Assembly (NCBI GenBank): GCA_013619105.1
Contig: JABXKU010000012.1
Location: 1 to 41,475, forward strand
Source of the DNA: Desulfuromonadales bacterium
Lineage (GTDB): Bacteria > Desulfobacterota > Desulfuromonadia > Desulfuromonadales > Syntrophotaleaceae
Reading direction: 5' to 3'
DNA: 41,475 bases
Part shown: positions 3 through 7,603 of the stretch, piece by piece
How positions within the stretch are numbered: the first letter of the stretch is position 1
Layout: each line of letters begins with the position of its first letter
Made by a program: the position numbers and the translations under genes
The notes under the pieces: model-generated
Told to the model about the DNA's origin: nothing
Seen by the model: only the letters and a program-made list of their open reading frames with translations
Databases searched by the model: none

Positions 3-589
3 TCACCTTTTGTGACGGTGGATTCTGAACATCACCATAAAAAGGATAGCTGGTGACTTGTCAAATTGATTCGCCGATATATACCGGACGAACTCTGTGC
101 CTCCCAGTATAGTTGAGGCAACCACGGCCTGCAAAGGGTTTCCTTATCCTCCGGGGAGTGCTTCTTCAACAAATTTCCGATACCGATTTTTCGCTTTTGC
201 AGCGCTTTTGCCGAAATAGCCGAGAAGAAATTCCGTAGTCAACCAAGCCGGCGTATGAATCCGCCTCGACGAGTATGGCCTTGTATCTCCCTTAAAAGAG
301 ATGACCAGCCCGTTTTCGGTTGATATTGAAATAGGTCGTGTAGGCCCCGTTAATATGCCCCATGATCTGTGCGAGGTTGCCCAGCGGGGTTTCCAACAGC
401 AGGTGGTAATGGTTATCCATCAGGCACCATGCATGAATGATGGCCCGGTAGCGAAACACCGCTGACTCCAGGTAAGAGAGAAGCTTTTCCCGGGCGGCTT
501 GGCTTTTGTATATGGAATTCTGATCATTGCCACGTGAAGTGACATGATAAAAAGTCCCCGGGGTACTGGATTCTTAAAGGGCGAGACAT
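3..589 (-). pseudogene. REP-associated tyrosine transposase (RAYT, Y1_Tnp family), decayed
   Basis: No single frame stays open, but three minus-strand frames read in succession give a RAYT-like protein. The ATG at 589-587 opens with MSRPLRIQYPG. After a one-base shift near 555 the reading is VTSRGND, then RYRAIIHAWCLMDNHYHLLLE, which carries the HxH-like NHYHLL metal-binding motif of Y1 transposases, then NLAQIMGHINGAY and RAGHLFKG. A second shift near 290 would restore RYKAILVEADSYAG. The conserved stretch that normally follows is missing, and the text resumes as WLTTEFLLGYFGK and RYRKFVEEAL. A last shift gives NPLQAVVASTILGG before a stop at 5-3. RAYTs are domesticated IS200/IS605-like nucleases that mobilise REP palindromes. 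At least three frameshifts and one internal deletion make this copy inactive. I saw no intact REP array beside it. Confidence 0.85.
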
Positions 590-654: not shown

Positions 655-1557
655 CTAATACGCCTGAACCCCATACTTAAGCAACAATCTTGGCAGTATG
701 TCATCAAGATTTTGAACTTCCTTGTCTTGCAGCTCTATCAGATTGAAGCCATATTTATTATAAAGATCAATCTTCTTTTGCTTCCTGGCAATATACTTCT
801 GGTCGTTTTCGTAACCCCAATATTCAATGTAAACCTTGCCTGTCGGAATATAGAAATCCGAATAGACATCTTCCTCTATCGGAAGTTTCCTTTCATATGC
901 GTGGACTATTTCAGCCATATATAACCAGTTATCGATGAGCATTTCCGCCTTGGATCGGACAAAATGGCCATCGGTGCTCCGATGTTTTGCCTCGAATTTA
1001 TCCCTGAAACCCACTGCCGCAGATCCCGCGTTCACGCCGCTGCTGGGCGGCTGGACTGTTTGGGTGACACCGGTGCCTTTAACCTGGCCAATCGTCTCAA
1101 TCAGGGACTTGGTTTCAATAATTGAATTAGGCCACCGAACGTAGGGTATTCCTGACTTTCGATCCTCTGCCTGAATGCCACCTTGCTTCTTCCCTTGATC
1201 GGTAACCAGCCAGCCTTTAAGACCTTTGTTCACCCAGCCAAGTTCAGAGAGGATGAAATTGATTTTGTTGGCGGACAGCTCAAAGGTTTTCCCAACGGCC
1301 GTGGCCGTAAGTAAATTTTGCCCAGGCTTTTTGGCGGGAGTATTCGGTGGTTGGAGGCTGAGATCTTCTGGCCATACAATGTACTTGCCATATTGCGGCG
1401 ACTCTTTGTAGGCGCCCCCTCTTTTTTCACCGTCTTTGGTCAAAATCCATGCGGCACCATCTTTTTCAATCAGGCCGAGTTCCATCAAAGCGGCGAATAG
1501 TTCTTTGGCGGGTATGCAGAGTGTTTTTGAGAGGGCGGTTGTGGATATTTGTTTCAT
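655..1557 (-). CDS. Tandem winged-helix plus PD-(D/E)XK-like nuclease fusion protein (uncharacterised)
   Basis: 300 aa with no signal peptide or membrane segment. Residues 1-67 and 82-147 are two copies of one module: an ISTTALSKTL / LTATAVGKTF helix, a hydrophobic LMELGLI / LSELGWV helix, then a wing with W-x-LT-x-GxxxGG and a final V-x-W-P. This looks like a duplicated winged helix of the KilA-C type. A low-complexity linker (150-185) leads to residues 195-300, where RSKAEMLI (E205), YSDFYIP (D234) and VYIEYWGYE (E245), followed by a K-rich helix and NLIEL, have the spacing of a PD-(D/E)XK nuclease. Start choice: AGGAG lies about 9 nt before the ATG. No partner gene is visible; it stands alone in the accessory region next to the transposase relic. 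DNA binding and cleavage are inferred from pattern only and no family name is claimed. It could instead be a non-catalytic DNA-binding protein. Confidence 0.75.
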   Translation of the reverse strand: MKQISTTALSKTLCIPAKELFAALMELGLIEKDGAAWILTKDGEKRGGAYKESPQYGKYIVWPEDLSLQPPNTPAKKPGQNLLTATAVGKTFELSANKINFILSELGWVNKGLKGWLVTDQGKKQGGIQAEDRKSGIPYVRWPNSIIETKSLIETIGQVKGTGVTQTVQPPSSGVNAGSAAVGFRDKFEAKHRSTDGHFVRSKAEMLIDNWLYMAEIVHAYERKLPIEEDVYSDFYIPTGKVYIEYWGYENDQKYIARKQKKIDLYNKYGFNLIELQDKEVQNLDDILPRLLLKYGVQAY

Positions 1558-3604: not shown

Positions 3605-3638
3605 TATAAAAAAAGGGGCGAACCGCAGTTCGCCCCTT
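3605..3638 (-). terminator. Rho-independent terminator of the decayed htpG copy
   Basis: Stem AAGGGGCGAAC / GTTCGCCCCTT with loop CGCA, followed on the minus strand by seven T. It is almost identical to the terminator after intact htpG at 5694-5724, so it is part of the same duplicated segment. Confidence 0.85.
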
Positions 3639-3643
3639 CCCTT

Positions 3644-3798
3644 CTATTCTATTTTTTTCCTGACTCGGCTCATACCAACAAGCTTCTCATAAATATTATT
3701 ACTGAGAGCTAAAAAAGCCACCATGCGCTCTTTATCGAAAGAACGTTGGCTGAGCATGGCCAAGTCGTAGACCTGCTCGACGAGCCTAATGGCCTGAC
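3644..3798 (-). pseudogene. htpG: 3' fragment of an htpG copy
   Basis: The minus strand encodes VEQVYDLAMLSQRSFDKERM and then VAFLALSNNIYEKLVGMS, against AEQVYDLAMLSQRSFDKERM / EAFLTRSNKILEKLGGMS at the C-terminus of the intact HtpG encoded at 5750-7603. The normal stop after GMS is changed to CGA and the frame runs on to a TAG at 3646-3644. Only about the last 40-50 codons are present, with no ATPase domain and no start, so it is a relic. It begins 4 nt after the stop codon of the diguanylate cyclase. The copy keeps its terminator. The likely origin is a duplication, or an insertion that regenerated the 3' end of htpG, followed by drift. Confidence 0.9.
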
Positions 3799-3802
3799 AA
3801 CT

Positions 3803-5470
3803 TTATTCTGCTATGAGTGAATCCCCCATGTGGGTATGTGTGGCGTGTTTACTATCGATAATTTCTGCCATATTGTTGGCAAATGTGAAGGTGTTTTTCC
3901 CTTTGCTTTTCGACACATACATTGCTTTGTCAGCATCTTTGATAATGCCGTCTATCGTGGTGTTTTCTATTGGGAAAAAACAGACACCTACACTGGCACT
4001 TATCTGGGCGACTGCTTGCTTTAATGGAAAGGGCTTTTCCACTTCGGACAAGAGTTTTTTTGTAAACACCTCAGCTCCATCCCTGCTAGGAACCTCCGAT
4101 AAGATAATCGTAAACTCATCACCACCCATACGAGCTACAGTATCTGAGCTTCGACAACAGTCTTTCATTCTTATTGCAACCAAGGTGAGCAGCTCGTCAC
4201 CAGCGTCATGACCCAAACTATCATTGATATGTTTGAACCCATCAAGGTCTATATACAACAAAGCACCTTGTCGTTCTCCACGTGTTGACAACAGTATGGC
4301 TTGGTTTAGACGATCAAAAAATAGGGCCCGGGTAGGTAGCCCAGTTAAACAGTCAAAATGGGCCATACTGAACAATTGTTCCTGAGATCGCTTCCATCGG
4401 GTGATCGAGAGGGCCAAGTACCAGGATAGAATTGCTACTAATAAAAACAATCCTGCTCCTAAGGTAAACAGGTTGACCGTTAAGCTTCTAGCGTAGGCGG
4501 AAATGGTGCTTGCAGAGATAAAGGATACTATTTTCCATGTTGAATCGCCCTTACTGATGGCGTCCATGTTAGTTTCTAAGCCCTTGAGTAAACCCGAATC
4601 AATCAAGCTGATGGTATCAAATGTGTAGACACCTTGAGGTGTCACAATCTGGCCTTTAGGTGTAGCCATAAACTGTTGCCATAGCTCCGGGTTCTGTTTA
4701 GCAAAACTGAGATCAGTTTTGTCTTTAAACATGAACCCCCACTCTTTTTTAGCAACAGGATGTTTCAACCAGTAACCCTCTGCATTTAACAACATCGTCT
4801 GGCCATGCGCTACAGAGCCTACGTCCTGAATTATATTCAGGAGGTTCTCTCCTAGATAGTTGAGTAGGATGATTCCTCTTTTGGAGCCAGATCTGTCATA
4901 AACAGGGGTTCCGATTCTGATCATTGGTTTATACGGGGTTTCAATTTCACCGTGTTCTACGTTCAAATCAAGGGGGGAAACATAAAAACTCCCTTGGCTT
5001 AATTTGAAGGCTTCAGCAAAATAGTAGCGCTGCTGTTTATTCTGCAATCTCTGTTCATCCACAATATGTGGATTCCCACTATTGAAATTAATTCGAGAAA
5101 TTTCTTTGCCATTTTCATCTAGGTAACGGATCTGGTCGTATTGTTTCCGGTTTTTAGTAAGGTTCAACAATTCGAGGTTAACTGATGAGAGATTTTGTTC
5201 GGTGGGATCTTGCAGATATGCTTGCAAATCATCTTGCCCTGCCAGAAACATGAGATCGCTGATGACTGAAGTAAAATAGTTGTGTACCACCATTCGCTGC
5301 AGAGTTATTGAATGCTGCTCTTCAACTTTAAGGCGTGTAGCATGGTTTCCTGCTTGGAAATTATAAAAAACCGTGATCATTCCACCAAGCAGTATGGCGA
5401 AGAAAACAAAAAGCAATAAAAATGGCTTCAGCGATTTTTTGAATAGCTGTGTCTGGGTAAATATGCGCAT
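3803..5470 (-). CDS. Membrane-bound diguanylate cyclase with periplasmic Cache-like sensor
   Basis: 555 aa. TM helix at 15-37, a periplasmic sensor of about 290 residues (40-330) with dCache-like content (YLDENGKEISRINF, GTPVYDRSGSKRGIILLNYLG, LLNAEGYWLKHP), TM helix at about 331-356, then a GGDEF domain from 370. The domain starts HFDCLTGLPTRALFFDRL and has an intact GGDEF at 449-453. An RxxD inhibitory site (RSSD, 440-443) lies five residues before it, so product feedback is expected. It makes cyclic di-GMP from two GTP in response to an unidentified periplasmic ligand. No EAL domain. GGAG lies 10 nt before the ATG. It is inserted between intact htpG upstream and the htpG 3' relic immediately downstream, so it probably came in with that rearrangement. 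Confidence 0.93.
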   Translation of the reverse strand: MRIFTQTQLFKKSLKPFLLLFVFFAILLGGMITVFYNFQAGNHATRLKVEEQHSITLQRMVVHNYFTSVISDLMFLAGQDDLQAYLQDPTEQNLSSVNLELLNLTKNRKQYDQIRYLDENGKEISRINFNSGNPHIVDEQRLQNKQQRYYFAEAFKLSQGSFYVSPLDLNVEHGEIETPYKPMIRIGTPVYDRSGSKRGIILLNYLGENLLNIIQDVGSVAHGQTMLLNAEGYWLKHPVAKKEWGFMFKDKTDLSFAKQNPELWQQFMATPKGQIVTPQGVYTFDTISLIDSGLLKGLETNMDAISKGDSTWKIVSFISASTISAYARSLTVNLFTLGAGLFLLVAILSWYLALSITRWKRSQEQLFSMAHFDCLTGLPTRALFFDRLNQAILLSTRGERQGALLYIDLDGFKHINDSLGHDAGDELLTLVAIRMKDCCRSSDTVARMGGDEFTIILSEVPSRDGAEVFTKKLLSEVEKPFPLKQAVAQISASVGVCFFPIENTTIDGIIKDADKAMYVSKSKGKNTFTFANNMAEIIDSKHATHTHMGDSLIAE

Positions 5471-5693
5471 ATTTTAAGTGCTCCGATTATTTCTAAAACA
5501 GTCTTCACCTAATGACTAAAATATAGATAACTTTTAAAATATACTGTGATTACAAACAGCTATCAACTGGAAAATTGTATCTAGTGATATTTGTCTGATA
5601 TCGTAAATACATATTGTCTGCTCTTTGAAAAAGAAGTGGATCTGCAGTGTCAATATGTCACTTACCTTTTCAAAGGTGGTCTAACCTATGCAC

Positions 5694-5724
5694 AAAAAAA
5701 GGGGCGAACCGCAGTTCGCCCCTT
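5694..5724 (-). terminator. Rho-independent terminator of htpG
   Basis: Stem of GGGGCGAAC / GTTCGCCCC with loop CGCA and a minus-strand T run (5694-5700), 26 nt after the htpG stop. It has a near-identical twin at 3605-3638. Confidence 0.9.
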
Positions 5725-5749
5725 CCATTCTATTCTATTTGTTCCTGAC

Positions 5750-7603
5750 TTAGCTCATTCCGCCAAGCTTTTCCAAAATCTTATTGCTGCGCGTCAAAAA
5801 GGCCTCCATGCGCTCTTTATCGAAAGAACGCTGGCTAAGCATAGCCAGGTCGTAGACCTGCTCGGCGAGCATGGTGGCGTCTTCGTCGCGCTTGGCTTCT
5901 TGCAGCTTGAGGATGTTTTGAACCACCGGGCTCTTGAGATTGACCATTAGGGTATGCTCGGCAAACATGTCGGGCATATCACCATCGGGGCTCATAGAGC
6001 GGGTCATTTCCTTAAAGCGGCGGGTCTGCTCCGAAAGCAGAATCATGCCGGAGACGCTGTCGTCCTTAAGGCTTTCGACCCGAACGATAAGGCCGCCGGC
6101 CTTAAGGGACGCCTCAAAGAGTTCCGTAACCTGGGCGGCCTGCAGCTTTTGCTCGTCGGGCCCGGCCAACTCGATCTTACGATCTTCTTCGAGCAGATTT
6201 TCAGTAAGGTCGGAGTCGACTCGCTCGAACTTGACGTCAGTGTTTTTTGTTTCCAAAAACTGAATAAAGTGGCTGTCGATCAGTGCGTCGAGGAGCAGCA
6301 CTTCCATGCCCTGGCTTTTAAACAGCTTGATGTAGGTCGCCTGGGCGGCCTCATCGTTAGCGTAGTAGACTTTTTTGTCGTGTTTGGTCGCGGCCCGCTC
6401 CAGATATTCGGCCAGGGTGGTATGGCCCCCCTCGTCGGTGGTGCGGAAGATGACCTGCTCTTGCACCTTGTCGTAGAACTTGTCGTCGCGAAGCATGCCG
6501 TACTTGACGAAGGTATGGATGTCGTCCCAGATCTTGCTGAACGCCTTGCGGTCCTGGCGGGCCAGATCGCAGATCTTGCTCGCCACCCGGCTGGTGATGA
6601 CTTCGCGGATCTTGCGTACCTGAGGCTCGTTCTGCAGGTAAGAACGGGAAACGTTCAGCGGCAGATCGGGAGCGTCGAGGCAGCCCTGCAAGGGGGTGAG
6701 GAATTCGGGGATCAGCTCGGGGCAATTGTCGGAGACAAACACCTGGTTGCAAAAGAGTTTGATGTGGCTCTTTGCCATATCAAATTCAGTAGTTAAACGT
6801 GGAAAGTAGAGAATTCCCTTGAGGTTAAAGGGGAAATCGACGTTGAGGTGAATCCAGAACAGAGGCTCTTCGGCCATGGGATAGAGCTTGGCGTAGAATT
6901 CCTTGTACTGCTCATCGGTGGTCTCGTTGGCGGACTGGTTCCACAGGGGCGCGCTGTCGTTGACCTGCTCACCGGCCAGGGTCACTTTAACCGGCAAGAA
7001 GTTGCAGTACTTCTTTACGACTTCCCTTACCTTGGCCTCTTCGAGGAACTCCTTCTCGTCGGCTTCGAGATGCAGAATGATCTCGGTGCCACGATCGGTC
7101 TTCTCGATCTCTTCCAGCTCATAGCTGGTGCTGCCTTCGCAGGTCCAGTGGGCGCCGGCGACATCTTTCTGGTAGGACAGTGAGCGAATCTCAACCGTAT
7201 CGGCGACCATGAAGGAAGAATAGAAACCCAGGCCGAAATGGCCGATGATCTGATTCTTGTCGTCGAGACCTTTGAATTTTTGGACAAATTCTTCAGCCGA
7301 GGAGAACGCCACCTGGTTGATGTATTTGCGGATCTCGTCGGCGGTCATGCCGATGCCGTTGTCCTTGATGGTCAGGGTGCCAGCGTCTTTGTCGATGCTG
7401 ATGTCGACCACATAATCTTCGGCCAACTGCAGGCCCTCGACCAGGTTGACGTGCTGCAATTTGGTAATAGCGTCGACGGCGTTGGAGACCAGTTCCCGCA
7501 GGAAGATCTCTTTTTCACTGTAGAGCCATTTTTTAATGATGGGGAAGATGTTCTCGGTATGGATGGAGATATTGCCCTTTTCGGGCTGGTTGTGCTCGGC
7601 CAT
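5750..7603 (-). CDS. htpG: Molecular chaperone HtpG (Hsp90 family)
   Basis: 617 aa, close to the usual 620-640. Cytosolic ATP-dependent dimeric chaperone. The GHL ATPase motifs are in order: ELVSNAVDA (37-45, catalytic E37 and Mg-binding N41), DNGIGMT (81-87, adenine-contacting D81) and GHFGLGFYSSF (121-131, ATP lid). The middle domain has LYFPRLTTEFD-like and SRSYLQNEPQVRKI segments. The C-terminal dimerisation domain ends QRSFDKERMEAFLTRSNKILEKLGGMS. AGGAGG stands 11 nt before the ATG. It is a single-gene unit with a sigma-70-type promoter (7655-7683) and its own terminator. No sigma-32-like promoter was apparent. The last 50 codons and the terminator are duplicated at 3605-3798. Confidence 0.98.
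   Translation of the reverse strand: MAEHNQPEKGNISIHTENIFPIIKKWLYSEKEIFLRELVSNAVDAITKLQHVNLVEGLQLAEDYVVDISIDKDAGTLTIKDNGIGMTADEIRKYINQVAFSSAEEFVQKFKGLDDKNQIIGHFGLGFYSSFMVADTVEIRSLSYQKDVAGAHWTCEGSTSYELEEIEKTDRGTEIILHLEADEKEFLEEAKVREVVKKYCNFLPVKVTLAGEQVNDSAPLWNQSANETTDEQYKEFYAKLYPMAEEPLFWIHLNVDFPFNLKGILYFPRLTTEFDMAKSHIKLFCNQVFVSDNCPELIPEFLTPLQGCLDAPDLPLNVSRSYLQNEPQVRKIREVITSRVASKICDLARQDRKAFSKIWDDIHTFVKYGMLRDDKFYDKVQEQVIFRTTDEGGHTTLAEYLERAATKHDKKVYYANDEAAQATYIKLFKSQGMEVLLLDALIDSHFIQFLETKNTDVKFERVDSDLTENLLEEDRKIELAGPDEQKLQAAQVTELFEASLKAGGLIVRVESLKDDSVSGMILLSEQTRRFKEMTRSMSPDGDMPDMFAEHTLMVNLKSPVVQNILKLQEAKRDEDATMLAEQVYDLAMLSQRSFDKERMEAFLTRSNKILEKLGGMS

Follow-up and report, generated by a model that had tools for sequence, protein, structure and literature searches.

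A probable decaying duplication of the htpG 3′ end, with a predicted diguanylate cyclase gene between the copies, in a member of the Syntrophotaleaceae

How does the 3′ end of a chaperone gene come to be present twice, on both sides of a gene for a signalling enzyme? This question is raised by the htpG locus of a Desulfuromonadales bacterium of the family Syntrophotaleaceae (assembly GCA_013619105.1, here G000), in which the two copies bracket a gene for a predicted diguanylate cyclase. A first-pass annotation, made from the sequence letters, offered two origins for this arrangement: an old tandem duplication, or an element that entered at the 3′ end of htpG and restored it. Throughout this text, the window is the whole stretch of DNA that was analysed, namely the 41,475 nucleotides of contig JABXKU010000012.1, and the features of interest are collected in Table 1. 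We consider that a decaying tandem duplication of the htpG end, with an acquired cyclase gene between the copies, is the probable explanation overall. The locus is real and mostly reflects ordinary genome wear; it is not an integrase site.

The direct repeat of the htpG 3′ end and its terminator around a 1.9-kb Cache-GGDEF segment, as annotated, was confirmed by alignment. Approximately 186 bp (5694-5878) have a second copy in the same orientation at 3608-3793, 1.9 kb downstream of htpG in the direction of transcription. In a single alignment the two copies are 85% identical (E 2e-55), and their similarity is therefore not due to chance. Both the coding part (3653-3793 vs 5738-5878) and the terminator part (3608-3657 vs 5694-5743) align without gaps, at 82% and 96% identity, respectively, with a one-base offset of the terminator piece relative to the coding piece. 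It had also been claimed that one copy is an intact htpG and that the other has lost its stop codon, and both statements hold: the upstream gene is complete (Table 1), and direct reading of the fragment, which starts at htpG codon ~576, gives CGA in place of the TAA stop, with the frame running on beyond the old stop.

Table 1. Features of the htpG-cyclase locus and its surroundings, in window positions
Feature	Position	Strand	Basis or description
REP-associated tyrosine transposase (RAYT), broken remnant	66..564	(-)	Closest to the intact RAYT after htpG in G007
Candidate defence gene PDC-S69	655..1557	(-)	Full-length PADLOC match, E 4.5e-110
htpG terminator, second copy, little changed	3608..3657	(-)	Repeat alignment and folding
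htpG, decayed second copy, last ~42 codons, stop codon gone	3658..3793	(-)	Sequence comparison
Sensor-GGDEF diguanylate cyclase gene	3803..5470	(-)	555 aa, intact; Pfam GGDEF, E 1.6e-44
htpG terminator, first copy	5694..5743	(-)	Repeat alignment and folding
htpG, intact first copy	5750..7603	(-)	617 aa; full-length match to NCBIfam HtpG NF003555 (668 bits, cut-off 371)

The second copy had been described as drifted, which is correct for its coding part but not for its terminator. Sites of the fragment that are unlike both intact htpG genes, that of the window and that of the congener G001, amount to 2, 7 and 10 of 42 at codon positions 1, 2 and 3, while the two intact genes differ from each other at 7, 4 and 40 of 117. 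This codon-position pattern and the loss of the stop, together with a frameshift and a TAG in the corresponding remnant of G001, indicate that the second copy of htpG has lost coding constraint. By contrast, the hairpin of its terminator is essentially intact, with a predicted energy of -25.8 kcal/mol (z -5.0) compared to -24.7 kcal/mol (z -4.6) for the first copy. When the uncertain edge of the repeat is trimmed, private sites of the fragment are found at 14 of 116 coding positions versus 1 of 59 positions after the stop (p 0.02). We prefer this value for the contrast with the terminator over that of the untrimmed count, in which some bases of that edge are still included (19/129 versus 1/59, p 0.005). 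If the comparison is made against the htpG of G000 alone, also after trimming, the contrast is not significant (19/116 versus 4/59, p 0.098). As the coding part has drifted more than the terminator, the latter may have been retained to end the cyclase transcript, with gene conversion as an alternative account of its low divergence. In any case, the second terminator is not indispensable, because G001 has lost it.

The congener G001 is particularly informative about the history of the second copy. In this genome, htpG is followed by the cyclase, a 24-codon start of a RAYT gene, a remnant of htpG comprising codons ~484-549 and ~579-615, and a homologue of the gene at 655-1557 of the window. Compared with the start of the window fragment, this remnant sets in ~92 codons further upstream; it has a gap of 4 bases and a TAG within it, and the terminator kept in the window copy is missing. 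The deletion inside the remnant is bounded by a 10-base word, TCGCCGAGCA, which occurs twice, 96 bases apart, in the intact htpG of the same genome. Additionally, the joint between RAYT and htpG falls within ~10 bases that are common to htpG and, with one mismatch, to the RAYT of the relative G007, which serves as a proxy for the RAYT side; the fusion of the RAYT start to the second htpG reads as a deletion joint. Since the remnant of G001 is longer and carries different deletions, the ancestral second copy of htpG would have been longer than the one now found in the window, and the edge of the window repeat at codon ~576 would be the end of a deletion in one lineage rather than an att core. 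The ~95 bp between the htpG terminator and the cyclase show no clear likeness between the two genomes. Both are fragmented assemblies, and G001 is listed as 86% complete and 8% contaminated. One of its contigs (C350, locus L140) bears the 5′ end of a second htpG, 94.7% identical to the first over 340 bases, which may reflect either a further htpG gene or a mixture of strains and was left out of the evidence.

No clean tree emerges from the copies. Of 17 sites, the window fragment shares 7 with the htpG of its own genome and 8 with that of G001. For the G001 remnant, the score in favour of the htpG of its own genome is 24 to 2 over the first block and 8 to 2 over the second; the latter has 12 lone differences, 5 of which match the state in the relative G004. 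Consequently, these data do not discriminate between separate duplications and a single duplication followed by gene conversion.

An integrative element that entered the 3′ end of htpG, gave the gene a replacement for that end and was subsequently deprived of its integrase would leave the same general architecture, with an intact gene (the host htpG retains its full length), cargo and a displaced 3′ end. Some phages replace the 3′ end of a gene in this manner at icd, and e14 is such an integrative element; there, too, an intact gene is followed by cargo and a displaced partial 3′ end. At htpG, by contrast, no recombinase was found among the bracket ORFs of at least 80 aa (3794-5693), which apart from the cyclase are antisense or overlapping frames, although the integrase may have been lost. 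Alignment of the repeats, which had been suggested as a means of finding their sharp edges, revealed no sharp common core between the 85% identical copies, and the remnant edges differ between the sister genomes (codon ~576 in G000, ~484 in G001). Relatives without the cyclase, which the annotation had proposed to look for and which an element would require, do exist: in G003, G004, G007 and G009, htpG is followed by other DNA with no match to the cyclase sensor at E 1e-30 (G007 and G009 were compared over 1.2 and 2.3 kb of downstream sequence, respectively). However, these empty sites also fit a duplication. Other cargo inserted at the same position, also suggested as a check, did not materialise. 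Among the 80 of 136 genomes of the order that match the htpG 3′ end or C-terminus, additional 3′ pieces were limited to G000, G001 and G074, the last of which has a RAYT gene, and no integrase, between the copies. A second htpG match in G109 adjoins the first and looks like a frameshift, and G002, which is 67% complete, gave no htpG match. Finally, a literature search covering titles and the opening parts of abstracts returned no report of integration at the htpG 3′ end. Given the lack of a recombinase in the bracket and of edges shared between G000 and G001, site-specific integration was rejected, and we regard it as very improbable.

Of the two origins first put forward, tandem duplication is thus the one favoured, by the longer remnant of G001 and its different edges. 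A full second htpG in place of the fragment, named in the annotation as a sign of plain duplication and loss, was not seen in the relatives, and neither was a duplication joint between units, which is either lost or missing from the assemblies; what the relatives did provide is the longer, partial remnant of G001, which comes close to the outcome named in the annotation. The locus resembles a partial tandem duplication followed by pseudogene decay in that a same-orientation partial copy lies close to an intact gene, in that this copy has lost its stop and its coding constraint, and in its lineage-specific deletions at short repeats. It departs from that pattern in having a foreign gene between the copies and a pseudogene terminator that is little changed. 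A literature search on partial tandem duplication gave no match. The case illustrates that the decay of a duplicate can look like an integration scar, and that comparison with a single sister genome can separate decay from integration, through differing edges and deletion scars at short repeats as opposed to a fixed core.

The 1900 bp between the copies (3794-5693) contain one convincing gene, that of the cyclase. Its sensor domain is of the HK_sensor/dCache type, and the GGDEF signature can be read directly in the translation, preceded five residues before by RSSD, an RxxD inhibitory site; with both elements present, the predicted product fits a diguanylate cyclase. In comparison with G001 (dN 0.057, dS 0.335), this gene is under purifying selection. 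It is AT-rich, with a GC content of ~0.37-0.45 against 0.50-0.58 over htpG, and its distribution is patchy. Among 40 relatives, only the congener G001 has a close relative of it (89%), the next by E-value being at 32% in G038. At E 1e-30, its sensor part was matched in 24 of the 136 genomes of the order and in 2 of the 14 of the family (G000 and G001), and the closest relative outside these two in this search was that of G107 (54%), none of whose neighbours was recognised by eye as related to htpG. Additionally, between G000 and G001 its dS amounts to roughly half the value for htpG (0.647), hcp (0.657) and cupin (0.662), although those for the last two come from the G001 contig with the second htpG 5′ end and may belong to another strain. 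Being patchy, AT-rich and less diverged than the core genes, the cyclase gene was probably acquired horizontally.

The low dS of the cyclase, together with that of the gene at 655-1557 (0.122, versus ~0.65 for core genes), suggests that accessory DNA was exchanged after the lineages of G000 and G001 split, which keeps a history of homologous capture under consideration. In such a history, a single crossover would have brought foreign DNA, consisting of the cyclase and the htpG segment of a related donor, into htpG, so that htpG remained complete on the upstream side and was present as a partial copy on the downstream side. Although this would agree with the patchy, AT-rich nature of the cyclase and with its dS, no donor with a cyclase beside htpG was found among the 40 relatives, the cyclase of G107 lying among other genes. 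Moreover, the dS of htpG does not fall in the 3′ direction (codons 115-617 are at 0.728), and the remnant of G001 tracks its own htpG. We consequently consider capture unlikely and continue to prefer a decaying tandem duplication.

According to this preferred explanation, a stretch with no fewer than ~130 terminal codons of htpG, together with the terminator and probably also the neighbouring RAYT gene, would have been duplicated in tandem in this genus, with the copies in both genomes going back to one event. The simplest ancestral order, arising from a duplicated htpG-RAYT unit, would be htpG1, cyclase, RAYT1, htpG2, RAYT2, with the horizontally acquired cyclase sitting between the terminator of the first htpG and RAYT or the second copy. 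While the first htpG would have stayed functional, the second would have been eroded by deletions that differ between lineages. In the lineage of the window, one of these deletions would have placed the end of the cyclase beside what is left of the second htpG, its last ~42 codons and its terminator, and this terminator would have been kept, perhaps to end the cyclase transcript. If so, a dead gene's terminator kept for a newcomer gene would constitute a small case of reuse.

The inclusion of RAYT in the duplicated unit is suggested by the neighbourhood of htpG in several genomes. In G007, an intact RAYT (NF047646, 84.9 bits, cut-off 80) starts 148 bp past the htpG stop, and the far end of this element (L032 10940-11060) appears by eye to be tandemly repeated several times. 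In G003, a remnant recognised by its match to that of the window follows htpG. The RAYT start in G001, before the htpG remnant, and the piece in the window were identified by similarity to the G007 protein; the latter matches it at 76% over 244-564 and at 48% over 66-254, and lies 3 kb beyond the htpG fragment, at the end of the contig. Thus, RAYT genes or remnants are found near the htpG 3′ end in one family, f1 (G007, G003 and G001, and further off in G000), and also in a second, f14 (G026 and G074). In G074, the RAYT gene (L167 8444-9469; Pfam Y1_Tnp, 30.7 bits, cut-off 23) lies between the end of htpG and that genome's own 107-bp copy of the htpG 3′ end, 94% identical, the two copies being located 54 and 27 bp from it and the whole arrangement spanning L167 8286-9602. 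The ends of this RAYT show a 24-bp inverted self-match (87.5%, E 0.27). G026, a congener of G074, has a RAYT (62%), and no htpG 3′ copy was found there.

It could accordingly be proposed that a RAYT beside htpG made the duplication itself, by copying the end of the neighbouring gene across itself. The recurrence of RAYT near htpG in two families and the closely flanking copies of G074 speak for such a process, but G026, G007 and G003 have a RAYT or a remnant and no repeat was found in them. In a survey of 51 RAYT loci, 6 of which were dropped because their flank was shorter than 100 bases, a flanking direct repeat was observed at 7 of the 45 usable loci, and within 100 bp on both sides at only 2 (L198, which is that of G074, and L144, with 51 bp). 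The controls, some of them off-centre from their gene, gave a flanking repeat at 4 of 46, two of these being the htpG-cyclase locus itself, and RAYT-driven duplication was rejected as a general rule. In passages of PMC2817692 on RAYTs, IS200/IS605 elements are said not to generate larger duplications of their target, and a long copy of a neighbouring gene end does not figure among the products described there, which sets this locus apart from that account despite the RAYT genes and remnants near htpG in two families. We therefore find a RAYT highly unlikely as the cause of the duplication. A broader reading, for which we would claim little probability, is that RAYTs repeatedly land at the htpG 3′ end and, as enzymes acting on single strands, occasionally copy the neighbouring gene end across themselves, with foreign genes settling between the copies and reusing the terminator, independently in G000/G001 and in G074. 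Were the RAYT link true, it would amount to a visible footprint of RAYTs in gene neighbourhoods.

Elsewhere in the window, two stretches near small ORFs (2200-2312 and 2812-2900) looked attC-like by eye; these candidates were dropped, as neither strand of either stretch folds better than shuffled sequences, and a genome-wide search at E 0.1 returned 2812-2900 a single time. The G000 genome does encode an integron integrase, on another contig (C196:66274-67218; 475.6 bits, cut-off 265).
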